From contig NZ_JAHWDQ010000001.1 in the NCBI RefSeq assembly GCF_019312595.1, positions 806,001 to 870,000 of the forward strand: a stretch of 64,000 nt of DNA, given 5' to 3'. The stretch is from Zhongshania aquimaris (GTDB taxonomy: Bacteria; Pseudomonadota; Gammaproteobacteria; Pseudomonadales; Spongiibacteraceae). The notes beneath the pieces were generated by a model. It was not told the origin of the DNA, did not search any database, and worked only from the letters and a program-made list of their open reading frames with translations. Every line of letters begins with the position of its first letter. Within the stretch, counting starts at the first letter, position 1. Positions 37,511-59,873 of this stretch are shown one piece after another. Both the position numbers and the translations under genes were made by a program.

Positions 37511-38668
37511 TTAAACGATGTTGGCCGCACTCGCTAATATCAACCTCACGACTAAAGCCTGCCTATCTACTCCCATCTTCTTGAATACTGAGCGAAGATG
37601 CGTGCGAACCGTAGAATTGGCCATACCTAATGAGTCCATGATATCTGTGACACTTAGTCCGTCTGATAGCAATAATGCAATGCGCGCTTCAGTGGGCGAC
37701 AGACCAAAAAGCTCACTAACTGTTACTTCACTAGCATAAGTAGGTAAATCAGAATCTCTTATAAATAGGGCTAACGCAGGTGATTCAGTTTGCTGAGTAT
37801 AATCATGTGCCGGAATAGCGCGAACGACTACGCCTATAGAGCTAGACTTTGCCTCCTTTGAAAGCCTTAAAGCCTCGGGACGAACTGGCGCACCTATGCT
37901 CCGAGCATTCAACATCCTGCTTACCACACCCTCAAACACTTTCTTCGATGCAAGATCCCGAATGTCAACCCGTCCGTCTGAGATCGCAATATCAGTCTGA
38001 TTGGAAAGTAATATATCAGCACTTTTATTACGGGAAACGACTCCTCCGAGTGCATCAAGTAGAATTAAACAAATTGAAGATCTATCAATTGTCTCATAGT
38101 AAATCATGTTCTCGGACGCTAAACATTGCGCTTTAGCTAGCAAAATCAAAAATTTACCAATATGCCCAGAAAGATAATCCAGCAAATATCTGTCCGAAGG
38201 TGAGACTTTTCCGCCTGCGACAGGAACGCCTATTTTAAGAATTATAGTTACACCGGCGGATGCCGGTATCTCAATTGAGTACAAACTATAGAGCCCTAAT
38301 GTTTCTAAAAACATATCGTAAACTCTACATTTCCCCAACCGGGAAGAAGCTTCAAATTCAGAATTATGTCCCACTCTTTCTGTATACAAATACTGATTCA
38401 AGTCAAAGGACATAACTCGATCGTTGCAAAATACATGGGCATCACCTGGAATTCCACTTACAAAAAGCACCTTTCCCGTACTGTCTTCTGAGGAAAATAC
38501 CAACAGTGTTGCCATAGTGGATTGAAATTTTTCAGTAAGCAGCGTCAATAGACTACGCAAGGGGTTTTCATCGAATAGGCATTCATATATGTCGCCAACA
38601 AAAATAGCATAACCATTCTTGTCACACGTAATAGGGTCAATATATGACGCACTCTTTGATATATGCAT
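37511..38668 (-). CDS. LuxR-family transcription regulator with undefined sensory domain
   Basis: A 385-residue protein. The C-terminal 65 residues form a LuxR/GerE HTH (GLSPTEARIALLLSDGLSVT, then LGMANSTVRTHLRSVFKKMGVDR). The first 300 residues are an unassigned sensory part, possibly GAF/PAS-like folds (no motif seen), containing a segment at about 190-250 with a PAS-like look (DALGGVVSRNKSADILLSN). It lacks a response-regulator receiver, so it probably senses a small molecule directly. Upstream of the sulfatase gene on the same strand, 75 nt downstream of its stop. It is the only regulator beside the sulfatase/SDR/receptor block, in addition to the TetR gene at 49921. Confidence 0.82.
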   Translation of the reverse strand: MHISKSASYIDPITCDKNGYAIFVGDIYECLFDENPLRSLLTLLTEKFQSTMATLLVFSSEDSTGKVLFVSGIPGDAHVFCNDRVMSFDLNQYLYTERVGHNSEFEASSRLGKCRVYDMFLETLGLYSLYSIEIPASAGVTIILKIGVPVAGGKVSPSDRYLLDYLSGHIGKFLILLAKAQCLASENMIYYETIDRSSICLILLDALGGVVSRNKSADILLSNQTDIAISDGRVDIRDLASKKVFEGVVSRMLNARSIGAPVRPEALRLSKEAKSSSIGVVVRAIPAHDYTQQTESPALALFIRDSDLPTYASEVTVSELFGLSPTEARIALLLSDGLSVTDIMDSLGMANSTVRTHLRSVFKKMGVDRQALVVRLILASAANIV

Positions 38669-38743
38669 ATCAGTACAATTGAACCACGATTTGAATTATG
38701 ACTATAAGAACGAAACCCGAAGTTAAATACATTCACCACCCAA

Positions 38744-40393: not shown

Positions 40394-40411
40394 GAAAGGC
40401 CTATATGCTTT

Positions 40412-40567: not shown

Positions 40568-41338
40568 CTACTGAATGGTAAATCCACCATCCACCGGAAT
40601 AGACTGGCCTGTTATATAGTTCGCCTTATCAGAGCAAAGCCAGATCACAGTGTTTGCTATATCTTCCGGGAAACCCAAATCTCCCATCGGAGTAAGCGCC
40701 TTTAAACCCTCAACCACTTCTGGCATCGTATCTACCAGCCGTTCAATGATAGGGGTATATATCCCGCCGGGGCATACCGCGTTCACCCGAATTCCACTAC
40801 GCGCGTAATCTAGAGCAACTGATTTGGTAAGCCCCAGAACTCCATGCTTTGCCGCAACATATGGCGCTATACCGGAGTTGCCCACCAAGCCCATAACGGA
40901 AGAGATATTAACTATACAGCCAGCACCCTGTTTCAGCATTTGCTCGCACTCATATTTCATGCATAGCCAAACACCTTTCAAGTTTATGTTAATCGTTCTG
41001 TCCCAGTCTTCTTCCAAAGCGTCTGCTATCGCAGCAGTAACACCTTCAACTCCTGCATTGTTACAGGCGAAATCTAGTCGTCCGTAGGTATCAATCGTCT
41101 TTTGAACCAATCCTGAAACACTACTACTAGAGGAAACATCGGTTCGGCAGAAAATCCCTTCTCCACCCATCTGAACCATGTCATTCAAAACCTTCTCACC
41201 CTGTTCTTCGTCTATATCTGCGATAACGACCTTGGCGCCTTGACTAGCAAAACCCTTAACGACCGCACGGCCTATTCCAGATGCGCCACCAGTGATAATT
41301 GCCACTTTGCCGATAAGGTCACTACCTAAAACACTCAT
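40568..41338 (-). CDS. Short-chain dehydrogenase (candidate 17-beta-hydroxysteroid dehydrogenase)
   Basis: A 256-residue classical SDR. The cofactor loop is ITGGASGIGRAVVKG, an Asp after beta-2 (VVIADIDEEQG) favours NAD(H), NNAGVEG follows, and the catalytic Ser and YVAAK pair are in NISSVMGLVGNSGIAPYVAAKHG. The C-terminus IPVDGGFTIQ is standard. It oxidises or reduces an alcohol/ketone. Sitting between a TonB receptor and a sulfatase and near the P450/extradiol operon, it could oxidise 17-beta-estradiol to estrone, the first step in aerobic estrogen degradation. SDR specificity cannot be read from sequence, so this is a proposal. It ends in a terminator before the sulfatase. Confidence 0.88.
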   Translation of the reverse strand: MSVLGSDLIGKVAIITGGASGIGRAVVKGFASQGAKVVIADIDEEQGEKVLNDMVQMGGEGIFCRTDVSSSSSVSGLVQKTIDTYGRLDFACNNAGVEGVTAAIADALEEDWDRTININLKGVWLCMKYECEQMLKQGAGCIVNISSVMGLVGNSGIAPYVAAKHGVLGLTKSVALDYARSGIRVNAVCPGGIYTPIIERLVDTMPEVVEGLKALTPMGDLGFPEDIANTVIWLCSDKANYITGQSIPVDGGFTIQ

Positions 41339-41491: not shown

Positions 41492-43765
41492 TTAAAATTC
41501 GTAGGTAAAGTCAATGCCGTAGCTACGAGGCTCAGAAAATGTAACAAGAGACAAATCCAAAGCGCCTACATCAGTAATCCAAGTTTGATAATCTTTGTCA
41601 AAAATATTGTTGACCCACAATGAGATCTTGCCACTACCACCACCAATATCTATCTCAGATAAGCTTAGGCGCGTATTCACGAGAGTACGCGACTCGACAA
41701 CAGCACGACGCGAAATGCGCCCAGCATCGTTTTCAGCGTTAGCTCCTACCATGTCGTCACGATAATCCGCGCCAAGCCGATAAGATAACTGACCTATCTC
41801 AATGGGATCAAACTCATAAAGAATGCCCACATAGGCAGAGTGCTTCGGAGAAAACGCCGGTGTATTCATACTCGCCGTATTTTCACCCGGCGCGGCACCA
41901 GGAAAATCTTCAAACTTTGAATCTAAGAAAGCGTAGTTAGCATTCACGCTCAAATGATCAGTAAGTAATGCAGAAACCTCTACCTCTACTCCACTGATCT
42001 CTGATTTCCCAGCATTTATCAGCGAAAATGACGTATTAACTCCCTCTTGCACTATAGGCCCATTTACCTGCTGATCACTATAATCATAGAAGAAAGCAAC
42101 GGCGTTGAGACGAACCCGATTATTCATTAACTCAGATTTAAGACCTAACTCCCAAGCCTCTAGGTTTTCTTCGTCAAAGGTTACTGACGCCAGTGGAACG
42201 TTCCCTGTCACAAATCCCCTTGCACGCTGATTAAAGCCACCAGAGTTATATGATTGCGACCATTTTATAAAAGTGCTGAGATCCTCATTCCACCGATAAT
42301 CAAGCGTTATCATTGGATCAACGCTGTTCCAAGAGTCCGAGACATTCAACTGATTGGCAAGCGTAAATCCAGCGCTCATAATCGACGGGTCATAATAGTT
42401 CATGGTCTTTTCGTCGTCACTCCAGCGTAAACCCAATGTAATATCCAGTTGATCATTCAACACTGGGGGCGTGACGGTAGTCTGGCCATAGACAGCCAAC
42501 GACTTGATATCTTGGACACGACTTGTTGTCTTCAAGTCACCGGGGAAATTGGTCATGTCGACAGGACCATTCTCGGTATCCGCTTGATATAACACTTCTT
42601 TACTATCTGTACTTGCGTCGTAGTAAAAAATACCGGCTATATAGCTCCAGCGATCACTGACGTCACCGGTGAGTGTTATTTCCTGAGTAAACTGATCAAC
42701 CGTGTTACTTTCATTACTTTTTGTAAAAAAGGCATTTAGAACTGTTCCGTCTCGCTCATTCCCAGTATTAAACACGTCCGTTTCCCGAATAGCGGTAATA
42801 GACTTTAGTGTTGCGTCTCCAATATCGATCGCTAGTGTCAGGCTGTGGCCTTGAGACTCTGTATCGACACGGAACCCAGTGCCCGGCGATGGTGTAAGCC
42901 GAGAAGCACCACTTTGAATAGCACCCGAGTTTGTTGCCTGAAAGAATGGCGAGTTTGGCCCAACTGCAAGCAACTGGCCTGGATGAGGTGCAGTGGTCTG
43001 GTCGGTATAATCAAAAATATAGTCTGCAATAAAGGTGTCGGATGGCGTCCAGCGCAGTGCCGCACGGACAGTGTCGTTGTCAAAGCTTCCTATATCAATA
43101 TCAGCAATTTCAGGTATCGGGGAATTATTCTTCTCGTACGCTTCCTGTTCTTCGTGGGCATAACTAATACGTGCAGCTAGATTCTCAACTATAGGAGTTT
43201 CAACACTGGTGATACTTCTCCGCTCACCAAAATTAGCTATTGTAAATTGCTGCTTTACATGAAATTCACCGCTAGGCTTCTTACTTATGTAGTTTACCGC
43301 GCCACCAGTGTTATTTCGTCCATACAATGTACCCTGCGGACCACGTAGAACTTCGACCCGTTCCAAATCAACAAGGCCGCTCATGCTACCCACGGTACTA
43401 CCGTAATATACGCCATCAAAATATTGACCAACGCGACTTTCAACGCCGGCAAGGATATCGCCTCCGCCAACGGACCGTATTTGCAGGTTTACAATACTTC
43501 CGCCACCAATCGTCGCACTAGTCGTTAAGCCAGGCACAACACTACCGAGCTGATCACTTCGCTCAACACCAAGATCTTTAATCTCATCGCCGCTAATCGC
43601 CGAGATCGCAATAGGGATATCTTGCAATCCTTCTGCTCTCTTCTGAGCCGTAACCAATATTTCTTCAAGAACCCTCTCCGCAGCAAAAGTGGCAGGCGAG
43701 CCGCAGTTTAACGCGGCAATGACGGCTATGCTTAACAGGGGTCTAGCATGAATCTTAGGGTACAT
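41492..43765 (-). CDS. TonB-dependent receptor (EdcT-type candidate)
   Basis: A 757-residue TonB-dependent receptor. Signal peptide ending near ATFAAERV (about residue 30), TonB-box-like EEILVTAQKRAEGLQDIPIA, plug domain with VEVLRGPQGTLYGRNNTGGAVNY, and a barrel ending YGIDFTYEF. GGAGAG precedes the ATG at 43765; the start at 43798 is less likely. Its promoter at 43879-43906 carries the GGTAC-N4-AGTAC element that also stands at the thiolase and P450 promoters, so it belongs to the same regulon. In Novosphingobium tardaugens a receptor, EdcT, is tied to estrogen uptake; this is the positional equivalent. The ligand is inferred. Confidence 0.92.
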   Translation of the reverse strand: MYPKIHARPLLSIAVIAALNCGSPATFAAERVLEEILVTAQKRAEGLQDIPIAISAISGDEIKDLGVERSDQLGSVVPGLTTSATIGGGSIVNLQIRSVGGGDILAGVESRVGQYFDGVYYGSTVGSMSGLVDLERVEVLRGPQGTLYGRNNTGGAVNYISKKPSGEFHVKQQFTIANFGERRSITSVETPIVENLAARISYAHEEQEAYEKNNSPIPEIADIDIGSFDNDTVRAALRWTPSDTFIADYIFDYTDQTTAPHPGQLLAVGPNSPFFQATNSGAIQSGASRLTPSPGTGFRVDTESQGHSLTLAIDIGDATLKSITAIRETDVFNTGNERDGTVLNAFFTKSNESNTVDQFTQEITLTGDVSDRWSYIAGIFYYDASTDSKEVLYQADTENGPVDMTNFPGDLKTTSRVQDIKSLAVYGQTTVTPPVLNDQLDITLGLRWSDDEKTMNYYDPSIMSAGFTLANQLNVSDSWNSVDPMITLDYRWNEDLSTFIKWSQSYNSGGFNQRARGFVTGNVPLASVTFDEENLEAWELGLKSELMNNRVRLNAVAFFYDYSDQQVNGPIVQEGVNTSFSLINAGKSEISGVEVEVSALLTDHLSVNANYAFLDSKFEDFPGAAPGENTASMNTPAFSPKHSAYVGILYEFDPIEIGQLSYRLGADYRDDMVGANAENDAGRISRRAVVESRTLVNTRLSLSEIDIGGGSGKISLWVNNIFDKDYQTWITDVGALDLSLVTFSEPRSYGIDFTYEF

Positions 43766-43850
43766 TTGATACTCTCCGTAATTATTCTTATGGACCAATT
43801 TAAGTTTAGAAAAATTTCACATACACAATTCCAGGCTCCAACAAATAAGA

Positions 43851-43864
43851 GTACTGCCTGTACC
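43851..43864. promoter_or_regulatory. GGTAC-N4-AGTAC operator, TonB receptor promoter
   Basis: Reverse strand reads GGTACAGGCAGTAC. The same 5-4-5 pattern occurs at 45287-45300 and 45463-45476. It lies just downstream of the predicted receptor -10, about 85 nt before the ATG. Likely bound by the TetR protein encoded at 49921. Confidence 0.6.
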
Positions 43865-43878
43865 TTTATTTATTAATA

Positions 43879-44011: not shown

Positions 44012-45241
44012 TTACAAGCGCTCAATAATCATCGCCGGAGCCATCCCCCCACCCGCACACAATGTCACAAGGCCATAGCGCATATCGCGACGCTCCAGCT
44101 CGTCGAGCAATGTACCAATCAACATCACTCCGGTCGCGCCAATCGGATGCCCAAGGGCAATCGCCCCCCCGTTTACATTTACCTTTTCTGGATCTAACTT
44201 TAGATCCCTTATGCATTTTTCGACGACGACTGCAAACGCCTCATTAATTTCGAACAGATCAATGTCATCTATTTGCAACCGGGCTTTTAGCAAAACCTTT
44301 TCAACTGAATTCACCGGCGCGTTAAGCATTAATGTCGGGCAGCCTCCCATATTCGCTACCGCGACTACTCTAGCCCTAGGGGCTAATCTATTTCGCGTAG
44401 CATATTCAGGGGATGCGAAAAGAACAGCTGCGGCACCATCGACAACACCAGACGAGTTACCTGCATGATGCACATGTGGTATTTCAAGACCAGGGTATTT
44501 TATTGCGAGCAATCGGCGATAAGTATCACCACTGCCATCTATAGACAGATCAAGGTTATCGAATGAGGGAGCGAGTTGCGACAAAGCCTCGAGCGTTGTT
44601 CCATGCCTTGGATGCTCGTCATGAGCAAGAGCAAGTGACCCATCCTCGTTATAAACCGGGATTAGACTCTTATTGAAATACCCATTTATCTGAGCATGCG
44701 CTGCCCGCTGCTGCGAACGAAGCGCAAACTGATCCAAAGACATGCGGTTAATATGCTCAATACTTGCAATCGCATCCGCGCACATGCCTTGATGAATCTG
44801 TGGATGCAAATACCGAAGATGCAAGTTTCCCTGATCCATACTTGGTAGACGCCCCGCCATTCGGTCAGGTGCAGACATTTTCTCACTACCCCCAGCGACT
44901 ACCAGATCCTCCATACCAGACATAACTGATGCCGCTGCAAAGTTGACGGCGGTTAAACCAGAACCGCAGAATCGATCTAAAGTTACACCACTGGACTTTA
45001 TGTCATAGCCTGCATCCAAAGCCGTCATCCGCCCAATATCACCGGCTTGCGCGCCGCCTTGTGCACTTGTCCCCCAAATAACATCGTCCACATCAGCCGT
45101 ATTTATATTATTGCGATCCCGAATAGCAGAAAGCACCGCGCTGCCAATCCTATGAGGATGTACATGCGCCAAGGAACCCTTGCCGGACTTACCAATGCCA
45201 CGCGGTGTACGACAAGCATCAATTATCCACGCCTCAGTCAT
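44012..45241 (-). CDS. Acetyl-CoA acetyltransferase / 3-ketoacyl-CoA thiolase
   Basis: A 409-residue classical thiolase. The nucleophile is Cys92 in TLDRFCGSGL, the catalytic His lies in ALGHPIGATG, and the second Cys in LVTLCAGGGMAPAM. NEAFAVVVEK is also typical. It releases acetyl-CoA (or propionyl-CoA) from a 3-ketoacyl-CoA. It is divergent from the P450 operon and shares with it the GGTAC-N4-AGTAC operator, so it most likely ends the beta-oxidation rounds of the cluster. Steroid thiolases of the FadA5/FadA6 kind have this layout. The ATG at 45241 starts MTEAWIIDACRTP, standard for the family. Confidence 0.9.
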   Translation of the reverse strand: MTEAWIIDACRTPRGIGKSGKGSLAHVHPHRIGSAVLSAIRDRNNINTADVDDVIWGTSAQGGAQAGDIGRMTALDAGYDIKSSGVTLDRFCGSGLTAVNFAAASVMSGMEDLVVAGGSEKMSAPDRMAGRLPSMDQGNLHLRYLHPQIHQGMCADAIASIEHINRMSLDQFALRSQQRAAHAQINGYFNKSLIPVYNEDGSLALAHDEHPRHGTTLEALSQLAPSFDNLDLSIDGSGDTYRRLLAIKYPGLEIPHVHHAGNSSGVVDGAAAVLFASPEYATRNRLAPRARVVAVANMGGCPTLMLNAPVNSVEKVLLKARLQIDDIDLFEINEAFAVVVEKCIRDLKLDPEKVNVNGGAIALGHPIGATGVMLIGTLLDELERRDMRYGLVTLCAGGGMAPAMIIERL

Positions 45242-45286: not shown

Positions 45287-45300
45287 GGTACCAATAGTAC
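45287..45300. promoter_or_regulatory. GGTAC-N4-AGTAC operator, thiolase promoter
   Basis: GGTACCAATAGTAC, 46 nt upstream of the thiolase ATG. Possible minus-strand promoter TTGTTC (45336-45341), 18 nt, TATTAT (45312-45317) lies just beyond it. Pair of the site at 45463 across the divergent control region. Confidence 0.6.
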
Positions 45301-45433: not shown

Positions 45434-45461
45434 TTGACAATCTTATCGCAACAAATAAAAT
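45434..45461 (+). promoter_or_regulatory. Sigma-70-type promoter of the P450 operon
   Basis: TTGACA (45434-45439), 16-nt spacer, TAAAAT (45456-45461). The operator at 45463-45476 begins 2 nt after the -10 hexamer, so a bound protein would cover the transcription start. AAAAGGTAGCGG before the ATG at 45503 supplies a ribosome site. Confidence 0.65.
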
Positions 45462-45462
45462 A

Positions 45463-45476
45463 GGTACCGTTAGTAC
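45463..45476. promoter_or_regulatory. GGTAC-N4-AGTAC operator, P450 operon promoter
   Basis: GGTACCGTTAGTAC. Identical in both outer pentamers to the site at 45287-45300 and, on the other strand, to that at 43851-43864. It overlaps the predicted start of transcription. Confidence 0.65.
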
Positions 45477-45502: not shown

Positions 45503-46690
45503 ATGAGCATTAACTACGACCCTTTTTCAGAAAAAGCCATGAAGGACCCGCTACCGTTGTACTCAGCTCTTCGCGCAGAAGGGAAACCGCACTACATTGA
45601 AAAATACAATGCATGGGCTCTGACAAGATTTGAAGACGTCATGAAAGCCAGTACCCATCACGAGAAAGACGTTACTTTCACCGCAGGACAAACACCCGGC
45701 CAACTTCTTCTGGGCGAACCAGTTTTGAAAGCATTTACCACAATGGATGCGCCAGAACATAGAAAATGGCGAGGTGTTATCCGTAAAAATTACACGCCAG
45801 AAGGCATTGAAGAGCACCGCGAGCGATTTACGGAACTCGCTAGAAATATTCTGGAACCGCTTTTGGATAAGGGTGAATTCGATGTCTACCACGATTATGC
45901 AAATCAGGTTTTCTGTCTTAACTCAGGCTACAACCTAGGACTGAGTAGCAGTGAATCTATTTCATGTCGAAGATTGATCGATGAAATGCTGCATCGTGAT
46001 TCCGGACAGGTTGGTAGCGGCTCTACTCGCAACCAAAAAGCTGCAACGGAGTTAATGACCTTCCTAGCTAATTTTGTTCAGAAAGTTCGGGCAAACCCAG
46101 ACTTAGCAGTTCGCCATACTGCGGCTTACTTATACGCAGATATAGATGGCAAGCAACTCGATGACGAAGAACTCGCACTGCTGTTATTAAACTTCTTAAT
46201 TGTGGGCTCCGAAACCACCCCGATGGTGGTAGCCGGAATGCTCTATCACTTAGCGCAAAACACAGACGTAAAAATGCGTGTTTTGAACGATCACCGCCTT
46301 ATTAAAGAACTCTACATCGAAACCTGTCGATACGACCAGCCGACAAATATGCTATGCAGACGCGCAGTTAACGCCTTTGATCTAAACGGCGCCCATATCC
46401 TACCGGGGCAGAATTTACTTTATATCTATGCGTCGGCAAACAGAGACGAAGAAGAGTTCGAGCAAGCAGATACCTTTAACATCTTTCGAAAACGTCGGCG
46501 TGACCTAAGCTATGGCGCCGGCGGACATAAATGCCTAGGCATGCATATGGCAACAATGGGGGCAGAAATTTTAGTAAGCGAGTTGTTTAAATCTATTAGC
46601 GATTATGAAGTACTTGAAGACCAATGCGAGCGATCTTACGGTGAATTTCTCAACGGCTACCTAACAGTTCCGATCAGAGTGACGCTATGA
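45503..46690 (+). CDS. Cytochrome P450 (candidate estrone 4-hydroxylase, EdcA/AedA type)
   Basis: A 395-residue soluble bacterial P450. The I-helix oxygen-activation motif is LIVGSETTPM, the ExxR pair is in ELYIETCRYD, and the heme-thiolate loop is LSYGAGGHKCLGMH with Cys344; the Phe expected seven residues before the Cys is replaced by Tyr at that position. It needs a separate ferredoxin and reductase, not present here. First gene of a 14-gene operon in which an extradiol dioxygenase and a 2-oxoacid oxidoreductase follow. In Novosphingobium and Rhodococcus estrogen degraders a P450 4-hydroxylates estrone to the catechol. Substrate here is inferred from context. The stop overlaps the next gene (ATGA). 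Confidence 0.9.
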   Translation: MSINYDPFSEKAMKDPLPLYSALRAEGKPHYIEKYNAWALTRFEDVMKASTHHEKDVTFTAGQTPGQLLLGEPVLKAFTTMDAPEHRKWRGVIRKNYTPEGIEEHRERFTELARNILEPLLDKGEFDVYHDYANQVFCLNSGYNLGLSSSESISCRRLIDEMLHRDSGQVGSGSTRNQKAATELMTFLANFVQKVRANPDLAVRHTAAYLYADIDGKQLDDEELALLLLNFLIVGSETTPMVVAGMLYHLAQNTDVKMRVLNDHRLIKELYIETCRYDQPTNMLCRRAVNAFDLNGAHILPGQNLLYIYASANRDEEEFEQADTFNIFRKRRRDLSYGAGGHKCLGMHMATMGAEILVSELFKSISDYEVLEDQCERSYGEFLNGYLTVPIRVTL

Positions 46691-47166
46691 GCACGACTAG
46701 CGCCCCAAAAATAACATTCGATGATATAGCACAATTAGAAGCGTGCATTTCAGACGAGTTTGGCCCACGTGGTAGCTCGATATCGATAGATCAAGAAACC
46801 ATCGATAGTTTTGCCGTGCTGACCACTGACCAGCAGTGGATTCATGTTGACCGTGAACGAGCTATCAACGGTCCCTTTGGTACCACCGTTGCGCATGGCT
46901 TCTTAATTCTCAGCATGCTGCCAGCCATTCGCCCCGTGAACAAATTTGAATTAGCGGGTTGGTCATCTGCGGCAACTTACGGTATCCGCGCCCTGCGATT
47001 TTTGCAGCCTGTAGCCAGCGGCAACCATATCTATGCTCGCAGTCGATTGCTCGGTGTTGAAGCACATCGACGCGGAACGCTATTAACAAGCGAGATAATG
47101 ATTCAATCAATTGAAAATACAAATCCGTCACTTTTATTTGAGCTACAACTGCTCTATATGCCCTAG
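46687..47166 (+). CDS. MaoC-like (R)-specific enoyl-CoA hydratase
   Basis: A 159-residue hot-dog protein of the MaoC/PhaJ type. The catalytic Asp/His motif reads TTDQQWIHVDRERA and is followed by GTTVAHGFLILSML, both typical of (R)-hydratases. It would hydrate a trans-enoyl-CoA to the (3R)-hydroxyacyl-CoA, the substrate of HSD17B4-like SDRs such as that at 51695. It overlaps the P450 stop by 4 nt, so it is coupled to it. A 187-nt gap follows. Confidence 0.85.
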   Translation: MSTTSAPKITFDDIAQLEACISDEFGPRGSSISIDQETIDSFAVLTTDQQWIHVDRERAINGPFGTTVAHGFLILSMLPAIRPVNKFELAGWSSAATYGIRALRFLQPVASGNHIYARSRLLGVEAHRRGTLLTSEIMIQSIENTNPSLLFELQLLYMP

Positions 47167-47353
47167 CAACTGCGTTTCGCTTGCGAATAATAGGATCGAT
47201 ATGAACAGGTTTAATCTCTAGAAAAGTGCTATCGATGACATCTATGCCGGCCATCTTTTCAAGCCGATATAGAAAGAGTTATTTTCGACAAGCAGTAACG
47301 CTTCTATTGAATAAAAGTAAAGACGAACACGCGTACTCAAGGAATAGAATGGA

Positions 47354-48738: not shown

Positions 48739-48739
48739 A

Positions 48740-50523: not shown

Positions 50524-50582
50524 ACCACAAGAAAATCGGCAGTCACAACATTAATTTTAAGTCGGCATACGAGAGCAGCAGA

Positions 50583-51695: not shown

Positions 51696-52591
51696 TGGGA
51701 CTACTCGCCAATAAGTCTATAGTTGTTACCGGCGCTGGTGGCGGTATTGGTCGTGCTCACGCACTGTTAATGGCAAGCGAAGGCGCACGAGTTATCGTGA
51801 ACGATATCAATACCCAAGCGGCTAATTCTGTTACCACCGAGATACTTGCTGCAGGGGGAGACGCCCGTGCCAATATCGATAATATCGCTAGTCGCAGCGG
51901 TGCAGAAGCACTGATAGATCACTGCATAGAGGCCTTCGGCGCTATCGATGTCATTGTGAACAATGCCGGCAATCTGCGTGACCGCTCATTTCTTAAAATG
52001 ACTGACGAAGAATTTGATGCAGTCTGGCAGGTACATGTGAAAGGGACTTTTTGGTGTAGCCAAGCCGCGGCCCTTGCAATGAAAGCAGCAGGTCGAGGTG
52101 GCGCAATTATCAATACAAGCTCCGGTTCACACTTTGGTAATTTTGGCCAAACGAACTATGCCGCAGCGAAAGGCGCTATCGCCTCAATGACCTATACCTG
52201 GGCTATTGAACTCGCGGGACTTGGTATACGTGTCAATGGTATCTGCCCAGTTGCTATGACCCAAATGACCGCCGGCCTAATGGCAGATCAAAACGGTCAG
52301 TCACCACAAGCGCTTTGGCAAGCTGAGCGCAATGCCCCGCTAGCGGCTTATCTCGCATCAGACGAAGCCATCAATGTCAGTGGCCAAATATTTGGTGTAG
52401 GTGGTGAACGTCTTTCACACATGGTTCAACCGCACTACGGAAAAACCCTAACCATGAAAAATGGCTGGACTGTCGCGGCCGTGCGCGAACAATTTCAGCA
52501 AGTCATGCCTCAGCAATTCGGCAACTTTGGCATTTTAGGAAACCCGTATCCATTCCATGGCGGTGTGTATCCACCCGCAAAGGCGGACTAA
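51695..52591 (+). CDS. SDR 3-hydroxyacyl-CoA dehydrogenase-like (HSD17B4 type)
   Basis: A 298-residue SDR. Cofactor loop VTGAGGGIGRAHALL, Asp turn VIVNDINTQA, NNAGNLRDRSFLKM, and the catalytic part NTSSGSHFGNFGQTNYAAAKG. It has the longer C-terminal tail of the multifunctional-enzyme-2 group, like its paralogue at 36407. I chose the ATG at 51695, which shares the base of the preceding stop (TAATG); the frame start at 51644 would overlap the dehydrogenase. It should oxidise a (3R)-hydroxyacyl-CoA produced by a MaoC hydratase in this operon. Confidence 0.86.
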   Translation: MGLLANKSIVVTGAGGGIGRAHALLMASEGARVIVNDINTQAANSVTTEILAAGGDARANIDNIASRSGAEALIDHCIEAFGAIDVIVNNAGNLRDRSFLKMTDEEFDAVWQVHVKGTFWCSQAAALAMKAAGRGGAIINTSSGSHFGNFGQTNYAAAKGAIASMTYTWAIELAGLGIRVNGICPVAMTQMTAGLMADQNGQSPQALWQAERNAPLAAYLASDEAINVSGQIFGVGGERLSHMVQPHYGKTLTMKNGWTVAAVREQFQQVMPQQFGNFGILGNPYPFHGGVYPPAKAD

Positions 52592-52594
52592 CTC

Positions 52595-53407
52595 ATGGTA
52601 TTCGAAACGCTCAACTACACCGTCGCAGATGGTATAGCAACAATCACCCTACAGCGCCCTGAGGCCCGCAACGCGGTTAATTCAGTGATGAGCCGCGAAC
52701 TGCCATTGCTGTGGCAAATGTTCGAGCAAGACGAATCCGCCTTAGTTGCTATTATCACCGGTGATGGAAATAAAACGTTTTGCAGTGGCGCCGACCTGTC
52801 AGATTTACCAGAGACAGACAGCGATGGACGCTATGGTTCACTCGAATCTTTCCGCTGGACCTCTCTGCAAAACAAAGTATGGAAACCCGTTATCTGTGCC
52901 GTAAACGGGATGACAGTGGGCGGCGGACTGCACTTTGTCGCCGATAGCGATATCGTTATTGCAGCTGACAGCGCTACCTTTTTCGACACCCATGTCAAAG
53001 TAGGGTTAGTCGCCGGTTTAGAGCCTGTCTCCCTAGCCCGCAAGATGCCCATGGAAGCGGTATTGCGCATGATGCTGGTAGGCGGCAATGAGCGCATGTC
53101 AGCAAAACGGGCACTCGAGCTCGGCCTAGTTGGCGAAGTGGTTACCAGCGCCGAATTAATGGCGCGAGCACAGCACGTCGCGAACATGATTAAAACAAAC
53201 TCCCCCTCCGCTATAGCACGCACAAAGCAAGCAATTTGGAGTGGTGAAAATAAAGGCCTCGATGATGCCTTGCAAAACGCATGGGATCTAATCATGGCGC
53301 AAAATTCGCACCCAGATTGCGAGGAAGGCGCGCGCGCCTTTCTTGAAAAACGCCCGCCCGTTTGGCAAAGCTACAGCAGAATAAATCTTGATGGCAAAAA
53401 CCAATGA
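52595..53407 (+). CDS. Crotonase-family enoyl-CoA hydratase/isomerase-like enzyme (1)
   Basis: A 270-residue crotonase-fold enzyme with the CoA loop FCSGADLSDLPE and the oxyanion GGGLHFVADSDIV. By the rat crotonase pattern the Glu of GGGCE is replaced by His in GGGLH, and the second Glu (in PE before the glycine turn) is also not Glu (THVKVG). Both classical hydratase glutamates therefore appear missing, so it may isomerise, hydrolyse or open a ring rather than hydrate. It starts 3 nt after the SDR stop and overlaps the next crotonase gene. The residue assignment is by hand alignment. Confidence 0.8.
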   Translation: MVFETLNYTVADGIATITLQRPEARNAVNSVMSRELPLLWQMFEQDESALVAIITGDGNKTFCSGADLSDLPETDSDGRYGSLESFRWTSLQNKVWKPVICAVNGMTVGGGLHFVADSDIVIAADSATFFDTHVKVGLVAGLEPVSLARKMPMEAVLRMMLVGGNERMSAKRALELGLVGEVVTSAELMARAQHVANMIKTNSPSAIARTKQAIWSGENKGLDDALQNAWDLIMAQNSHPDCEEGARAFLEKRPPVWQSYSRINLDGKNQ

Positions 53408-54141
53408 ACTATCAAGAAATACTATTTTCCCGCGATGGCCATGTAGCCATCATCACGCTGAATCGTCCCGACAAACTCAATGCCTACACGCCAGATATGG
53501 GTGAGGAGCTTGTCCATGCGCTTCGTTTTTCGGCAAGGGATAGCGCGATAAATGCAATAGTTATCACCGGTCAGGGCAGTGCATTTTGTGCCGGAGCAGA
53601 CACAGAGTACTTAAAAGGCAAGCGCGGGCATTGTGGCAAACTACTTGGCGAAGAAGACTTTATCGCCAATTTTACTCAAGAATTTGCCTCCCTACCGCTG
53701 CTTACGATTGCAGCTATTAACGGCACCGCGGCAGGCATTGGCCTGACCGGTATGCTGGCGGCTGATATACGTATCGCAGCGACCGACTCCAAGCTGGTAT
53801 TCAATTTTGCCGAGCTAGGCATCCTACCTGGACTGGGGTCGAGCTACTTTTTGCCTCACCTAATCGGCGAACCTCAGGCGAAGCAGCTGCTGTTATCTGA
53901 CCGAAGGCTGAACGGTAAAAAAGCCGAACAACTTGGCCTAGTAAATGAGGCCGTCCCAAGTGATCAAGTACTACTAAGAGCACTGGAAATTGCCCGCGGT
54001 GTTGATGCTTGTAAAACCAACATGGTCGCCTACATAAAGCGTGCTCTCAGTGCAGGCTGTGAGTCCAGCCTTGAGCAAGCACTGGCAAACGAAAAAACAC
54101 TTTCAAACAAGCTGAAACAAGCCAACGAGGTAATACAGTGA
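53404..54141 (+). CDS. Crotonase-family enoyl-CoA hydratase/isomerase-like enzyme (2)
   Basis: A 245-residue crotonase-fold enzyme. LNRPDKLNAYTPDMGEEL, FCAGADTEYLKGKRG and AAINGTAAGIGLTGMLAADIRIA are family landmarks, with FAELGILPGLGSS next. The Glu of GGGCE aligns with Thr and the second Glu aligns with Phe, so it too departs from classical hydratases. It overlaps both neighbours (ATGA and GTGA). Two non-canonical crotonases in one operon suggest isomerisation or ring-opening steps of a polycyclic acyl-CoA. Confidence 0.8.
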   Translation: MNYQEILFSRDGHVAIITLNRPDKLNAYTPDMGEELVHALRFSARDSAINAIVITGQGSAFCAGADTEYLKGKRGHCGKLLGEEDFIANFTQEFASLPLLTIAAINGTAAGIGLTGMLAADIRIAATDSKLVFNFAELGILPGLGSSYFLPHLIGEPQAKQLLLSDRRLNGKKAEQLGLVNEAVPSDQVLLRALEIARGVDACKTNMVAYIKRALSAGCESSLEQALANEKTLSNKLKQANEVIQ

Positions 54142-57100
54142 GCGACTTTTCACTATCAGATAAATATACGGCAACCTCAGGCAGAATTTACGTAACGGGT
54201 TCCCAGGCACTTACCCGACTACCCATCATGCAGAATCAGCGAGACGCTAAACAAGGCTTGAACACTGCCGGTTTTATTTCGGGCTACCGAGGCTCGCCGC
54301 TTGGTGTCTACGATTTAGCGCTGTGGCAAGCAGAGAAATATCTAAAGGAGCACCAGATCCACTTCCAACCCGGTGTTAACGAAGATCTCGCCGCTACCGC
54401 TGTGTGGGGTAGCCAACAGGTTTCGAGCATAGGTGAATCACTTTACGACGGTGTATTTTCTATGTGGTACGGCAAAGGTCCTGGCGTCGACCGATCCGGT
54501 GATCCTCTCAAACATGGCAACTGGGCTGGCGCATCTAAGCACGGCGGTGTCTTAGTCCTATGTGGCGACGATCACTCCGCTCGATCATCAACTACCGCTC
54601 ATCAGAGTGAGCACGCACTTATTCATTTCGGTATGCCAATTCTGAACCCTGCCTCTGTACAGGAGTATTTAGACTATGGCCTCTACGGATTTGCCTTGTC
54701 TCGCTATTGCGGTGCATGGATAGGTTTTAAATGCGTCACCGACACCGTCGAAGCGTCTGCATCAGTATCGATAGACCCCGAGCGCGTATGCATTGCTGAG
54801 CCCAAAGATTACCCACTACCTGCTGGCGGCTTAAACTTGCAGCAGGGACTGATACCAATTCAGTCCGAATCTTTAATGCTTGAAAGACTGGAAGCGGCAA
54901 AAGCATTTGTCCGCGCCAACAAACTAGATATAACAAAATTCGGTGGTGGCTCCAAAAAGCTTGGCATTGTCACTACAGGTAAGGCCTACCTAGATTTAAT
55001 GGATGCGCTCTCTCAGCTTGGCATTAATGAAACCGAGGCAGAGCAGCTAGGCATTGCGGTTTATAAGGTGGCAATGGTTTGGCCTCTTGAGCCTGAGGGC
55101 CTTAAAGAATTTGCCAGCAACTGCGAAACATTAATGGTGATAGAGGAAAAGCGGCCCATTATTGAGGAGCAAATTGCGGCATTACTTATCAACTTAAGTG
55201 ACAGCCTACGCCCTAAAGTAATTGGTAAATTTGATCTCCACGGTAAACCGCTGTTGCCCTCTAATGGCGAATTATCACCGGGTATCATCGCGCAAAAACT
55301 AACCGGTGAAATCCTCGCTCGCTGCGAAAACACACAGCAACTCAAACAGAATCTATTCGACCTAGAAACAAATTTAGCAACACAGAAACAATTGCCTGCA
55401 AATCAGGGAGTGCTCGCTCGACTACCCAGTTTCTGCGCCGGTTGTCCACACAACACCTCGACCAAAGTACCGGAGGGTTCCGTCGCTCATGGCGGTATTG
55501 GTTGTCACGGACTCGCCGTCTGGCTGCCCGGTCGCAACACTGTAGGACTGACCCACATGGGAGGCGAAGGCGCAACCTGGATTGGCCAGGCGCCTTTCAT
55601 GAAACGGAATCACGTGTTCCAGAATATGGGTGACGGCACTTATTTCCACTCTGGTTTACTAGCTATCCGTGCAAACGTCGCTGCAAAGACCAACATCACT
55701 TATAAAATATTAGTGAACGGCGCCATTTCTATGACCGGCGGGCAACCCATCGAAGGGGAAAGTTTCAATGGCGAAATCACTGCGCCCCACGTGGCACAGC
55801 AAATTTACGCAGAAGGTGTACAGCGCATTGCACTGGTTACTGATGATCTCCTCCGCCACCATGACCGCAGCCAATTCCCCTCAATTACAAGCTTCCACCA
55901 TCGCGATGAGTTGGATCAACTTCAACGACAAATTCGCGACGTAAAAGGTACTTCCGCGATCATTTATGAACAGGCTTGCGCGACTGAACGTAGACGTCTG
56001 CGCAAACGCGGTGAATATCCTGATGTCGACAAGCGGACTTTCATTAATCAAGATGTCTGTGAAGGTTGCGGCGACTGCGGAGTGCAGTCCAACTGTATTG
56101 CTATCGAACCGGTAGAAACGCGCTTTGGCCGCAAGCGCAAAATTAATCAATCTGTGTGTAACAAGGATTTCTCCTGCGTAAAAGGCATGTGTCCGAGTTT
56201 TGTAACCGTCACTGGAGGAAAATTACGCGCCTCCACGAACGCGGCCGGCGATATTGACCCCACCCTCTTTGCAACATTGTCAGAGCCGGTGAGCAAACTT
56301 TCCGGCGGTGACTGTAACATCCTAGTGGCTGGCATTGGCGGCAGCGGCATCATTACCCTCGGCGCGCTGTTAGGTGTCGCTGCGCACATGGAAGGGAAGG
56401 CGTGCTCTGTCTTAGACCTAACCGGTCTCGCCCAGCGAAATGGTCCCGTTACAAGCCATATCCGTCTTGCTATCGAAGGTCAATTAGAGCTTTCAACACG
56501 CATCCCCGAAGGAGCTGCAGATTTAGTACTTGCCGCAGACTTAGTCGTCGCATCCAGCGGGCAAGTCCTACCAACACTATCTCAAAATCGATCCTCCGTG
56601 GTTTATAACAGCTATATCGCCCCAACAAACGCCTTTGCAAGCAATGCTGACCTGAGCTTTGACAGCAGTAAAATGGAAGTAGCCCTGCAGACCCGCACCC
56701 GCAATGGCCAAGCTTGGGGCATTGATGCAACGGGTATCGCCAGTAAATTACTTGGTAACGCGATTGGAGCAAACTCATTCTTACTCGGCATTGCCTATCA
56801 ACAAGGCCTCATTCCTTTAAAGCAAGAGTCACTAGAAAAAGCGATTCGCCTCAATGGCGCCGAAATAGAAATGAACCTCCACGCATTCCGACTCGGCAGA
56901 TTGTCAGTGGTATCGCCTGAGAAATTAGAAGATCTATTGACGCCTTCACAGGTAGTACGCTTAGTGCAAGCTGACACATTGGAGCAGTTTGTAGCTGAGC
57001 GCGTAGAGTGGCTTAGCGACTACCAAGACCCGACCTATGCTCAACAATACAAAGCCCTAGTTGATAAAGTGGTCGCGACCGAAATAGACGTTACCGGCAC

Positions 57101-57647
57101 CCACGGCCCGCTATCCAAAGCAGTAGCTCGTTACTACTCCAAATTACTCGCTTACAAAGATGAATACGAAGTGGCAAGGCTATACACCCGCCCAGAGTTT
57201 ATGGCTCGCGTACGCGATCAATTCGACGGCGACTTCAAACTAAGTATTAATCTAGCACCGCCGCTGCTATCGCGCCGCGATCCAAACACGGGGCGCTATG
57301 CAAAAAAAGAGTTTGGCGCATGGATCTTAAGCGCGTTCAAATTACTAGCTCGCTTAAAAGTCTTACGCGGCACGCCACTGGATATCTTTGGCTACTCAAC
57401 ACACCGCCGTCAGGAACGCCAATTAATAAGTGAATACAAAACCATGCTAGAGGACCTTCTGCCAACGTTGACCAAAGACAACCACGCATTGGCAGTAAAA
57501 TTAGCTTGCCTGCCAGAACGAATCAGAGGTTATGACGTGGTTAAAGAGGAACATCTACATCGGGCCGAGGTCGAGAAAATGCGTTTACTCGCAGAGTATC
57601 AAGACGGCGGAAAGCAGGTAATAGAAAAGGCGAAAGTCTCGCCATGA
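54138..57647 (+). CDS. Fused indolepyruvate ferredoxin oxidoreductase-type 2-oxoacid oxidoreductase (EdcC-like)
   Basis: A 1169-residue fused 2-oxoacid oxidoreductase. N-terminal TPP/pyrimidine-type domain with SGYRGSPLGVYD (about 48-59), TPP-binding half with FCAGCPHNTSTKVPEG and GGIGCHGLAVWLPG then GGEGATWIGQ (about 435-485), a ferredoxin-like Cys set CEGCGDCGVQSNC and CNKDFSCVKGMCP (about 640-690), the gamma-type domain ILVAGIGGSGIITLGALLGV (about 727 on) and a C-terminal region of the kind seen in the long aerobic forms. It converts a 2-oxoacid plus CoA to an acyl-CoA with loss of CO2. Here it would act on the meta-cleavage product. The GTG start overlaps the crotonase stop. Function from family and context. 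Confidence 0.88.
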   Translation: MSDFSLSDKYTATSGRIYVTGSQALTRLPIMQNQRDAKQGLNTAGFISGYRGSPLGVYDLALWQAEKYLKEHQIHFQPGVNEDLAATAVWGSQQVSSIGESLYDGVFSMWYGKGPGVDRSGDPLKHGNWAGASKHGGVLVLCGDDHSARSSTTAHQSEHALIHFGMPILNPASVQEYLDYGLYGFALSRYCGAWIGFKCVTDTVEASASVSIDPERVCIAEPKDYPLPAGGLNLQQGLIPIQSESLMLERLEAAKAFVRANKLDITKFGGGSKKLGIVTTGKAYLDLMDALSQLGINETEAEQLGIAVYKVAMVWPLEPEGLKEFASNCETLMVIEEKRPIIEEQIAALLINLSDSLRPKVIGKFDLHGKPLLPSNGELSPGIIAQKLTGEILARCENTQQLKQNLFDLETNLATQKQLPANQGVLARLPSFCAGCPHNTSTKVPEGSVAHGGIGCHGLAVWLPGRNTVGLTHMGGEGATWIGQAPFMKRNHVFQNMGDGTYFHSGLLAIRANVAAKTNITYKILVNGAISMTGGQPIEGESFNGEITAPHVAQQIYAEGVQRIALVTDDLLRHHDRSQFPSITSFHHRDELDQLQRQIRDVKGTSAIIYEQACATERRRLRKRGEYPDVDKRTFINQDVCEGCGDCGVQSNCIAIEPVETRFGRKRKINQSVCNKDFSCVKGMCPSFVTVTGGKLRASTNAAGDIDPTLFATLSEPVSKLSGGDCNILVAGIGGSGIITLGALLGVAAHMEGKACSVLDLTGLAQRNGPVTSHIRLAIEGQLELSTRIPEGAADLVLAADLVVASSGQVLPTLSQNRSSVVYNSYIAPTNAFASNADLSFDSSKMEVALQTRTRNGQAWGIDATGIASKLLGNAIGANSFLLGIAYQQGLIPLKQESLEKAIRLNGAEIEMNLHAFRLGRLSVVSPEKLEDLLTPSQVVRLVQADTLEQFVAERVEWLSDYQDPTYAQQYKALVDKVVATEIDVTGTHGPLSKAVARYYSKLLAYKDEYEVARLYTRPEFMARVRDQFDGDFKLSINLAPPLLSRRDPNTGRYAKKEFGAWILSAFKLLARLKVLRGTPLDIFGYSTHRRQERQLISEYKTMLEDLLPTLTKDNHALAVKLACLPERIRGYDVVKEEHLHRAEVEKMRLLAEYQDGGKQVIEKAKVSP

Positions 57648-58183
57648 AGAACTTGCCTAGCCAGGTACAAGCGCTCATCAACCAGCCTCAATATGACAAT
57701 ATTGCAGACAATATTGTGAGCAGCAGCAATATTCGAGCACTCTGCGCCACAGTGAAAAATGCCAATCCGGCATACTGGAGCATTGATGCAGCGAATCAGA
57801 TTGCAGGCGCAGAAATTGCGCCAGCTGCAATGCTATCTACGTGGACTCGCCCAGAGCGTTGGTCGCCAGACAGGCAAACAGAATTTAATTCATTGCAGCT
57901 ACACTACGACCTTAAACATTTACTCGACTATCCTAGCGCTATTATTAGTAGTTTCGAATCCGTTTTTCACGCCCCCGTGAAAGTAGGCGACCGACTGCGC
58001 TCACACCAAACGCTACGGTCAATCAGTGACGAAAAAACAACCCGTCTCGGACGAGGCAGGTTCTGGCAAATTGAGGTGCAGTACCTAAATCAATTAAATG
58101 AGTTAGTCGGTGAGGAGCTTTTTAATTGCTATGGGTACTGCAAACCCACCCCCTCACGCGATTCGGAAACCAGCGCGCCATGA
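57644..58183 (+). CDS. FAS1-like/MaoC N-terminal hot-dog dehydratase subunit
   Basis: A 179-residue hot-dog-fold protein resembling the N-terminal (substrate-binding, non-catalytic) half of two-part MaoC dehydratases. ATVKNANPAYWSIDAANQIAG and PAAMLSTWTRPERWSP are recognisable (quoted in part: NANPAYWSID). No Asp-x4-His catalytic pair is evident. It overlaps the next gene, which holds that pair, so the two probably form a heteromeric enoyl-CoA hydratase, as ChsH1-ChsH2 do in mycobacterial steroid catabolism. Overlap with the 2-oxoacid oxidoreductase stop is 4 nt. Confidence 0.75.
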   Translation: MKNLPSQVQALINQPQYDNIADNIVSSSNIRALCATVKNANPAYWSIDAANQIAGAEIAPAAMLSTWTRPERWSPDRQTEFNSLQLHYDLKHLLDYPSAIISSFESVFHAPVKVGDRLRSHQTLRSISDEKTTRLGRGRFWQIEVQYLNQLNELVGEELFNCYGYCKPTPSRDSETSAP

Positions 58184-58653
58184 AAACCTTACTCTACGAA
58201 AATGTGCACATTGGCGATGACATAGCATCACTAGAAGTCAATATCAGCTGTACTGATATCGTCAGTGGGGCACTAGCGAGCCGCGACTACTCGCCACTGC
58301 ATCACGACTTCCACTATGTAAGCGAGCAAGCTGGGCATCAGGATATTTTTCTGAACACACCACACCAAGCCGCATTATTTGAGCGATTTTTAAGTGACTG
58401 GTCTGGCCCGAGAGGTCGACTTGGGCGCATGGGCTTTACCATGAAGAATTCAATTTATGCGAACAGTGCATTTATTATTAACGGCCAAGTAGAAGGTAAA
58501 TCAATTGATAGTACCGGGTGCGGCTGGGTCAATGTAAATCTACAAATACACGCAGGAGAAAGCATCGCGACAGAATGTGTCCTACGCTATGCATTACCCA
58601 AAACAATATACGATAACCCTTGGCGGCGCCGGGGCAAGGAGTGGCAACCATGA
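58180..58653 (+). CDS. MaoC-like hot-dog dehydratase, catalytic subunit
   Basis: A 157-residue MaoC-fold protein with the catalytic Asp-x4-His motif as RDYSPLHHD. The ATG at 58180 overlaps the previous stop (ATGA). The start at 58126 would overlap the partner gene heavily. Expected to hydrate a steroid-derived enoyl-CoA together with the partner encoded upstream. The C-terminal part (KTIYDNPWRRRGKEWQP) is typical of the second half of FAS1-like/MaoC fusions. Confidence 0.78.
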   Translation: MKTLLYENVHIGDDIASLEVNISCTDIVSGALASRDYSPLHHDFHYVSEQAGHQDIFLNTPHQAALFERFLSDWSGPRGRLGRMGFTMKNSIYANSAFIINGQVEGKSIDSTGCGWVNVNLQIHAGESIATECVLRYALPKTIYDNPWRRRGKEWQP

Positions 58654-59873
58654 GCGCACCACTTGAAGGAATCCGGGTAATTGATTGCTCTCTATTAGCG
58701 CCCGGCGCAACCGCTGCGCATCTTGCTGATCTTGGTGCAGAAGTCATTAAAATTGAAGCCCCGGGAGGAGACTACGTACGGGAGTTGACGTGGCCAATTA
58801 TTGAGGGCAGCTCTCTTATGCATCACGAAGTCTCCCGCGGCAAAAAGAGTCTCGTACTCGACTTGCGGCAGGAGGATGGTGTTAGAATATTTAAAGAACT
58901 AGTAGCAAAGTCAGACGTGGTAATCGAAGCCATGCGTCCGGGTGCATTAGCCCGCCGAGGCTTATCTTATGAAAACCTGAAACTCATCAAGCCTGATCTC
59001 GTTTTCTGTTGTATATCTGGTTACGGAATGACTGGGCCTTATCGCGACATGCCCGCCCACGGTATTGCATTCGACAGCTGGGCCGGGCTAGTGAAGCCAG
59101 AATACGATGACGAAGGCTTCTGCAATATTCCTGAGCACCCTTCCGTCGGCATGCATTCAGCACCAGTATATGCGGGAATGGCAATTTGCGCGGCGTTGCT
59201 GAGAAGCAAACGTACTGGTCAAGGCGCACAACTCGATATCGGCCAATCCGATGGTGCAGCCTATATTGATCGCCTGCGTTCAGAGACATGGAAAGCCTAT
59301 GAGCGCCCCCAATCTGAAGTAAGTGGAAATAAGTCAGACAATCACGAACGAAGAGAGCCAGGCACCGCCGGCATGCGCCACGGCGTTAGATATCAGTACT
59401 ACGAAAGTCGCGATGGTCATGTACTTTTTATGGCTTCAGAACAGGAATTTTGGCGAAATTTCTGCGACGGCGTAGGTCATTCTGAGCTATTCGAAAAATG
59501 GCCCGGCAAGCAATACGGAGATCACGCCGTAGGCAATAGAGAACTTCAATTATTACTACGAAACATATTCAAAACACGAAGCACACAAGAGTGGATGCAA
59601 TTCGCCAGCGAATACAACACCGCTATTGCACCAGTCAACACGCCAAAAAGTTTATTGGCGGACCCTCATTTCCAAACTCGCTTTCCGCTACTAAACGCCA
59701 AAGAACATATTGCTGACATGCTGCCCTTCCCCGTTCACTTTTGTGACGAAGACCTACCAATTCCATCCAAAGCGCCGACGGCTGGAGAGCATAGTGGCGA
59801 AGTTCTAAAATCAATATTGAATTATTCAGAAGAAAAAATTTCGGCGTTGACAGAGTCAAAGATAATTACTTAG
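58650..59873 (+). CDS. CaiB/BaiF-family (class III) CoA-transferase
   Basis: A 407-residue class III CoA-transferase. APLEGIRVIDCSLLAPG, LGAEVIKIEAPGGDY, LVLDLRQEDG and VVIEAMRPGALARRGL are typical. By comparison with formyl-CoA transferase the catalytic Asp is about residue 201 (GQSDGAA). It moves CoA between carboxylic acids, and would activate a carboxylate intermediate or recycle CoA. The ATG at 58650 overlaps the previous stop. Last gene of the operon, followed by a strong terminator. The natural donor and acceptor are unknown; bile acid BaiF/BaiK and carnitine CaiB are relatives. Confidence 0.87.
   Translation: MSAPLEGIRVIDCSLLAPGATAAHLADLGAEVIKIEAPGGDYVRELTWPIIEGSSLMHHEVSRGKKSLVLDLRQEDGVRIFKELVAKSDVVIEAMRPGALARRGLSYENLKLIKPDLVFCCISGYGMTGPYRDMPAHGIAFDSWAGLVKPEYDDEGFCNIPEHPSVGMHSAPVYAGMAICAALLRSKRTGQGAQLDIGQSDGAAYIDRLRSETWKAYERPQSEVSGNKSDNHERREPGTAGMRHGVRYQYYESRDGHVLFMASEQEFWRNFCDGVGHSELFEKWPGKQYGDHAVGNRELQLLLRNIFKTRSTQEWMQFASEYNTAIAPVNTPKSLLADPHFQTRFPLLNAKEHIADMLPFPVHFCDEDLPIPSKAPTAGEHSGEVLKSILNYSEEKISALTESKIIT

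Follow-up and report, generated by a model that had tools for sequence, protein, structure and literature searches.

A predicted repressor-controlled gene cluster of the edc type for estrogen catabolism in a Pseudomonadales bacterium

Gene content and relatives of the cluster

The stretch analysed here, called the window, comprises 64,000 nucleotides of Zhongshania aquimaris, positions 806,001-870,000 of contig C1 in genome G000 (4.25 Mb; Pseudomonadales), and all positions below are counted within it unless a contig or locus is named (G, C and L denote genomes, contigs and loci). Between 44012 and 59873 it holds a gene cluster of the edc type, a type of estrogen-degrading system which, together with the aed type, is genetically proven in sphingomonads and actinobacteria (PMC7793797, PMC12507874; all publications are represented here by excerpts). 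On the plus strand, 14 genes run from 45503 to 59873, and we read them as one operon because the 13 gaps are of only -58 to +187 bp, nine of them being overlaps. On the minus strand, a divergent thiolase gene is followed by genes for a TonB-dependent receptor, a short-chain dehydrogenase/reductase (SDR), a sulfatase and a LuxR-type regulator, with gaps of 213, 153, 90 and 75 bp. The initial annotation, which had proposed a 4,5-seco estrogen cluster here, named most of these genes, and the open reading frame list and the NCBIfam and Pfam matches bear out both their places and their families. The present analysis adds three operon genes, those of the VOC protein (48334), the TetR regulator (49921) and the third MaoC-like protein (58126), and the operator sites. 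The genes of the cluster are as follows, percentages being identities to AXB, ES2-1 and R-001, the reference strains introduced below.

45503..46690, +, cytochrome P450, predicted EdcA-type estrone 4-hydroxylase, in the EdcA clade; 48 and 47% ES2-1 (two copies), 49% AXB, 38% R-001
46687..47166, +, MaoC1, MaoC-type hydratase (PF01575); 34% ES2-1, 30% AXB
47354..48334, +, two-domain extradiol dioxygenase, predicted EdcB-type 4-hydroxyestrone 4,5-dioxygenase; 47 and 42% to the two ES2-1 copies, 49% AXB, 39% R-001
48334..48738, +, small VOC protein, counterpart of the gene adjoining edcB; 43% ES2-1, 39% AXB
48740..49924, +, acyl-CoA dehydrogenase 1; 63% ES2-1, 66% AXB, 55% R-001
49921..50523, +, TetR repressor, predicted EdcR-like (TetR_N and TetR_C_11); 42% to ES2-1 RS20395
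50583..51695, +, acyl-CoA dehydrogenase 2; 37% ES2-1 and R-001, 39% AXB
51644..52591 (true start probably 51695), +, HSD17B4-like SDR (3-hydroxyacyl-CoA dehydrogenase); 60% ES2-1, 61% AXB
52595..53407, +, crotonase 1; 54% ES2-1, 59% AXB
53404..54141, +, crotonase 2; 49% ES2-1, 47% AXB
54138..57647, +, fused 2-oxoacid:ferredoxin oxidoreductase, EdcC-type, 1169 aa (NF009589, 1541.9 bits); 57% ES2-1, 58% AXB
57644..58183, +, MaoC2, MaoC-like hydratase subunit (PF13452); 35% ES2-1, 35% AXB
58126..58653, +, MaoC3, MaoC-like hydratase partner, with no Pfam match; 31% to the adjacent ES2-1 MaoC, 34% AXB
58620..59873, +, class III CoA-transferase (PF02515), last gene of the operon; no match in the AXB, ES2-1 or R-001 loci
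44012..45241, -, thiolase (acetyl-CoA C-acyltransferase; NF004682), divergent from the P450; 42% to the R-001 thiolase, 42% to the ES2-1 FadA6-like thiolase

Three strains served for the protein comparison. Sphingobium estronivorans AXB (L040; PMC7793797, PMC8700777) and Novosphingobium sp. ES2-1 (plasmid p3, L029 and L142; PMC8700777) are both listed among bacteria that carry an estrogen cluster and an EdcR homologue, and the Prescottella/Rhodococcus equi R-001 plasmid (L030) carries a cluster of the aed type. Counterparts are found for 13 of the 14 operon proteins in AXB (30-66%) and likewise in ES2-1 (31-63%), the CoA-transferase being without a match, and R-001 has a P450 (38%), a dioxygenase (39%), an acyl-CoA dehydrogenase (55%) and a thiolase (42%) in common with the window. 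The gene order in AXB differs, and both sphingomonads carry a lipid-transfer protein (LTP), an OB-fold protein and an HMG-CoA-synthase-like (HMGS-like) protein, which the window cluster lacks; the downstream half of the window system has the thiolase and the class III CoA-transferase in their place. ES2-1 further differs in having two copies each of the P450 and the dioxygenase, and in carrying its cluster on a conjugative plasmid, while that of the window lies on a contig of 1.93 Mb. The nearest cluster found is on contig C20 of G028, with identities of 64% for the oxidoreductase, 72% for the SDR, 65% for the P450, 60% for the VOC protein and 53% for the TetR protein.

The edc system of Caenibius (Novosphingobium) tardaugens NBRC 16725 (PMC7793797, PMC8700777) is compared by its published description, as far as the excerpts give it. 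Common to both are the P450, the dioxygenase, the VOC protein, the EdcC-type oxidoreductase, acyl-CoA dehydrogenases, two MaoC proteins, crotonase-type enzymes, a 3-hydroxyacyl-CoA dehydrogenase, a TetR regulator, a TonB receptor and the spacing TAC-N5-GTA of the operator core. In C. tardaugens the genes form two divergent operons, which also include lipid-transfer, ChsH2-like and HMG-CoA-synthase-like genes, whereas the window has one long plus-strand operon without them, a CoA-transferase within that operon and a sulfatase near the receptor.

Trees place the key enzymes with those of estrogen degraders. The P450 tree comprises 34 of 40 matches and the window protein, the six dropped being second copies of the same places. 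In it the window protein falls inside an 11-row EdcA clade (support 100/99), of which the other rows are AXB, both ES2-1 copies, two copies from one Novosphingobium metagenome-assembled genome (MAG), one copy from a Rhodospirillales MAG and four from Pseudomonadales, spread over three genomes; the R-001 P450 joins next to this clade (99/95). The dioxygenase tree comprises 49 of 105 matches, the window protein, which row L116 repeats, and the window's HsaC-like protein, leaving out second copies and unlabelled matches below 37% in loci above L060. Here 17 rows with AXB and ES2-1 form a clade (97/85), and 18 rows including R-001 have support of 100/99. This edc clade is separate from the BphC and HsaC types, the window's own HsaC-like protein among them, so that an assignment of the dioxygenase to HsaC or BphC is rejected. 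The enzyme at 47354 retains seven extradiol active-site positions, which we take to be H146, H195, H210, H241, D244, Y250 and E260 in BphC numbering. For the oxidoreductase, a quick method giving only SH-aLRT values sets it in an 11-row edc clade (SH-aLRT 99), apart from six generic homologues, of which the window's own genome contributes two; a comparison with solved structures gave no match at E 0.001. On the whole, the grouping by which the initial annotation proposed to judge the P450 and the dioxygenase came out on the side of estrogen degraders, and the oxidoreductase, which it proposed to compare with EdcC, falls with them too.

The fused EdcC-type oxidoreductase is described as occurring only in estrogen-degrading Pseudomonadota, while the actinobacterial route uses AedGHJ (PMC12507874, in excerpt). 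R-001 has no match to the window's oxidoreductase, and since the window has the EdcC-type enzyme, it does not belong to the aed type, in which AedGHJ replaces EdcC. The FadD-type ligase of R-001 has no window match at E 1e-8, in a search in which AedG and AedH were not queried individually. Among plasmid records, ES2-1 and R-001 hold the top two ranks both for the P450 query (of 985) and for the dioxygenase query (of 174). A homologue scan of 84,980 species genomes gave at least 79 loci; among the matches listed, 11 have 48-61% and the remaining 68 at most 38%, and C. tardaugens is absent. In the genome itself, P450 matches amount to 19 pieces, and in a few cases two pieces belong to one gene.

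Regulator and predicted operators

The TetR protein at 49921 has the TetR_N and TetR_C_11 domains reported for EdcR of C. tardaugens, for which an operator core TAC-nAnTn-GTA has been proposed (PMC8700777). It shows 42% identity over 163 aa to IM701_RS20395 of ES2-1, the EdcR homologue named in the same publication, 53% to the protein of G028, and 38% to that of AXB (74% of the length, at the locus end). In the window the palindrome GTAC-N5-GTAC occurs exactly three times, against 0.31 expected, and none of 100 shuffles reaches three. Genome-wide there are 29 such places, including the three in the window, and 94 for a reversed control pattern. The three window sites lie in the promoter regions of the cluster:

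45464..45476, predicted operator at the promoter of the P450 operon, GTACCGTTAGTAC; begins 2 bp past the -10 match
45288..45300, predicted operator in the thiolase-P450 intergenic region, 47 bp ahead of the thiolase start, GTACCAATAGTAC; exact fit to the published core TACnAnTnGTA
43851..43863, predicted operator before the TonB receptor, SDR and sulfatase genes, GTACTGCCTGTAC

Before the P450 a promoter match TTGACA-16-TAAAAT (11/12) lies at 45434-45461, and before the TonB receptor a minus-strand match (10/12) at 43906-43879. The looser TAC-N5-GTA also precedes the P450 in L031 and in G028:C20. ES2-1 has three such sites, spread over two promoter regions, and further ones lie in the divergent AXB dioxygenase promoter and between divergent R-001 genes. 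For AXB, PMC8700777 reports no palindrome; the site found in the present analysis is one base off the published core. We then compared 250-bp promoter segments in the window and 11 other loci, leaving out L025/L026 (G012), L022, L024, L027, L028, L032, L038, L039, L041 and L128. The window has three sites against 0.096 expected and the 11 other loci have seven against 0.343, and none of 1000 shuffles reaches either number; five of these 11 loci have a palindrome of the TAC-N5-GTA type at promoters. In L038, L039 and L041 there is no TAC-N5-GTA anywhere in the stretch examined. The core spacing thus appears to be common to the window cluster and the EdcR systems.

Lower pathway and the receptor edge

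For the lower (C/D-ring, HIP) pathway, 16 genes from the HIP region of ES2-1 served as queries, their Ipd and Fad names being partly provisional. Seven of them have counterparts at 1113-1133 kb of contig C1, with identities of 41-65%: two acyl-CoA dehydrogenases (41 and 65%), EchA20-like (56%), IpdC-like (53%), IpdB-like (50%), IpdA-like (57%) and FadD3 (46%). FadD3 and the IpdC-like and IpdA-like proteins were run against the whole genome and the other queries against the window and four stretches of 20 kb, so genes without a counterpart here may still lie elsewhere in the genome. The ES2-1 FadA6-like thiolase matched only the thiolase at 44012, which could therefore serve the HIP route.

About 20 kb from the cluster, at 20541-23839, the window contains a KshA-type Rieske oxygenase (22775), an HsaC-like gene (21834) and an HsaA-like gene (20541), the latter two both under their NCBIfam cut-offs. 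They suggest an ordinary 9,10-seco steroid route nearby and speak for a steroid degrader; degradation of this kind has been reported in Spongiibacteraceae and Halieaceae (PMC5790920, in excerpt).

The genes at the other edge of the cluster are as follows:

41492..43798, -, TonB-dependent receptor (PF00593, PF07715)
40568..41338, -, SDR, possibly a 17-beta-HSD as a guess (NF004818, 330.7 bits against a cut-off of 336); 35% to ES2-1 SDR20480
38744..40477, -, arylsulfatase (PF00884), possibly an estrogen-sulfate hydrolase as a guess
37511..38668, -, LuxR-type regulator (GerE domain)

The initial annotation had suggested that the sulfatase and the SDR might release estradiol from a sulfate and oxidise it. 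Both genes are present, while an estrogen substrate is not supported by their sequences. The nearest solved structure to the sulfatase is the arylsulfatase 1hdh (E 9e-150), with steryl-sulfatases far lower (E 3.5e-30), and the SDR reaches 35% with its ES2-1 relative. A steroid sulfatase is thus not upheld, and the enzyme is, judged by its closest solved structure, of a general arylsulfatase kind. It contains CSPTR, presumably the sulfatase motif.

Further genes adjoin the cluster. A second sulfatase (33238), a PtlE-like flavin monooxygenase of Baeyer-Villiger type (31811), an Abhydrolase_3 esterase (35140) and a PRK07791-type SDR (36407) fill 31811-37321, possibly another module for steroid conjugates or lactones. 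Directly past the operon end, KatG catalase-peroxidase is encoded on the opposite strand at 60008-62176.

Interpretation, alternatives and distribution

Taken together, the locus is, with good probability, a repressor-controlled edc-type cluster by which a Pseudomonadales bacterium catabolises estrogens along the 4,5-seco route; the initial annotation had already proposed an estrogen cluster with this route. The direct basis is the gene content, the clades, the active-site residues, the operator-like sites and the presence of HIP genes; from these we infer the substrate, the order of the steps, repression and induction, and the roles of the sulfatase, the SDR and the receptor. The P450 would 4-hydroxylate estrone (or estradiol after C17 oxidation), the dioxygenase would cut ring A between C4 and C5, and the fused oxidoreductase would turn the 2-oxoacid product into a CoA ester by oxidative decarboxylation. 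The acyl-CoA dehydrogenases, the MaoC hydratases or crotonases, the SDR and the thiolase would then shorten this ester towards HIP, and the HIP genes elsewhere in the genome would complete the degradation. A TetR protein of the EdcR kind would repress the three promoters via GTAC-N5-GTAC until an estrogen or an intermediate binds, and substrate import and unmasking may fall to the receptor, the SDR and the sulfatase.

Several observations weigh against this interpretation. The TetR protein scores higher against a second ES2-1 TetR, RS20510 (41% over 185 aa), than against the EdcR homologue. Of the three sites, only 45288 has both inner bases (A and T) of the published core; the P450 site lacks one of them and the receptor site both. 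The full 23-base EdcR operator does not occur in the window within one mismatch, and at up to three mismatches its 32 window matches, among them 45283 and neither the P450 nor the receptor site, stand against 20.9 expected and 33 in the largest shuffle, a count little above chance and uninformative as stand-alone evidence. Promoter-like matches near the sites number six against 4.0 expected, not above chance. The promoter test is strong but not blind, because six of the 11 other loci are without such a site and the gene list was drawn up after the strict sites were known. The reference proteins are those of AXB, ES2-1 and R-001, as stand-ins for C. tardaugens and Rhodococcus B50. LTP, OB-fold (ChsH2-like) and HMGS-like genes have no good match in the window cluster, the best matches genome-wide being 37% (LTP) and 30% (OB-fold/HMGS-like protein). 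Finally, the TonB receptor is not edc-specific, with 30% to the ES2-1 p3 receptor and 30-33% to other receptors; its presence was rightly noted, its identity as an EdcT orthologue is not upheld, and an EdcT role is suggested only by its position and the operator-like site.

The same chemistry could act on another natural substrate, a ring-A-aromatic steroid or a bulky phenolic terpenoid in place of estrone or estradiol. Identities to the proven systems of just 30-66% allow this, as do the different downstream genes (thiolase and CoA-transferase, no LTP/OB-fold) and the sister clusters without the P450 (G012, L036, L038, L039, L041), by which the dioxygenase clade serves more than one context; we regard it as unlikely, since the P450 and the dioxygenase nest among proteins of estrogen degraders and the operator spacing is common to the EdcR systems. 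Slightly less likely again is an incomplete pathway, in which estrogen is hydroxylated and opened and not mineralised for want of LTP/OB-fold-type partners. The low genome matches to these partners speak for it; on the other hand, the thiolase, 42% identical to that of R-001, shares the promoter region, the genome has seven HIP genes, and neither the Rhodospirillales bog locus L033 nor L126, the near part of G028, has the partners locally. A generic biphenyl or HsaC-type aromatic pathway misread as estrogen catabolism is highly improbable. The best NCBIfam match of the dioxygenase is indeed biphenyl-2,3-diol dioxygenase, although at 249.5 bits against a cut-off of 366.45; the tree sets the enzyme apart from BphC and HsaC (100/99), the annotated families of the operon include no meta-cleavage hydrolase, as the initial annotation had pointed out, and the HsaC-like gene stands separately at 21834.

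Within the estrogen reading, we can tentatively imagine one EdcR-type regulon of the ring-cleavage operon and the receptor-SDR-sulfatase operon, by which sulfated estradiol would be imported, desulfated, C17-oxidised and its rings degraded, the thiolase and CoA-transferase replacing the sphingomonad LTP/OB-fold-type partners; this stays rather doubtful. In G028, of the same order, a different sulfatase stands beside edc-type LTP, OB-fold and MaoC genes (L128:10960-13164), with acyl-CoA dehydrogenases further along, which points towards such a regulon.

As for the distribution, an edc-type dioxygenase at E 1e-80 or better occurs in nine genomes, counting the window's own, out of 390 sampled from the order, and these nine come from four family codes. 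Among 57 genomes (window included), another such dioxygenase at 53% or more is found only in G012, G028 and G037. G012 belongs to the window's genus and has no EdcA-type P450 genome-wide (best 27%), hence the presence of the cluster is patchy. The sister edc-like clusters, L025/L026 (G012), L036, L038, L039 and L041, contain the dioxygenase, oxidoreductase, VOC, SDR, crotonases, MaoC and acyl-CoA dehydrogenases and no EdcA-type P450 in the stretch examined (for G012, the whole genome); MaoC1 has 40-42% to the MaoC near the dioxygenase in all of them. In addition, an AMP-ligase is present in both G012 and L036, together with a ChsH2-like gene in the former and an OB-fold match in the latter. 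These clusters may rely on another hydroxylase or serve another phenolic steroid. Such dioxygenases are also contained in three MAG records titled Klebsiella pneumoniae (L035, L064 and L078; MH-08apr19-278, TH-08apr19-175); L035 is G028, of the window's order, and its title looks wrong.

The initial annotation saw here an extension of the pathway to gammaproteobacteria. A Pseudomonadales cluster is indeed present, and the novelty is softened by the excerpt of PMC8281962, which reports secondhand from Chen et al. 2017 that 12 alpha- or gammaproteobacteria have oecB/oecC homologues above 40%. The open-access literature searched, mostly at listing level, gave no account of a gammaproteobacterial edc cluster together with its regulator. 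The window cluster thus appears as an edc-type system already known in kind, with a variant downstream half, in Pseudomonadales. Estrogens are potent pollutants, and a well-supported Pseudomonadales cluster widens the range of markers for estrogen removal, while the predicted regulator-operator code offers a testable marker for finding such clusters.

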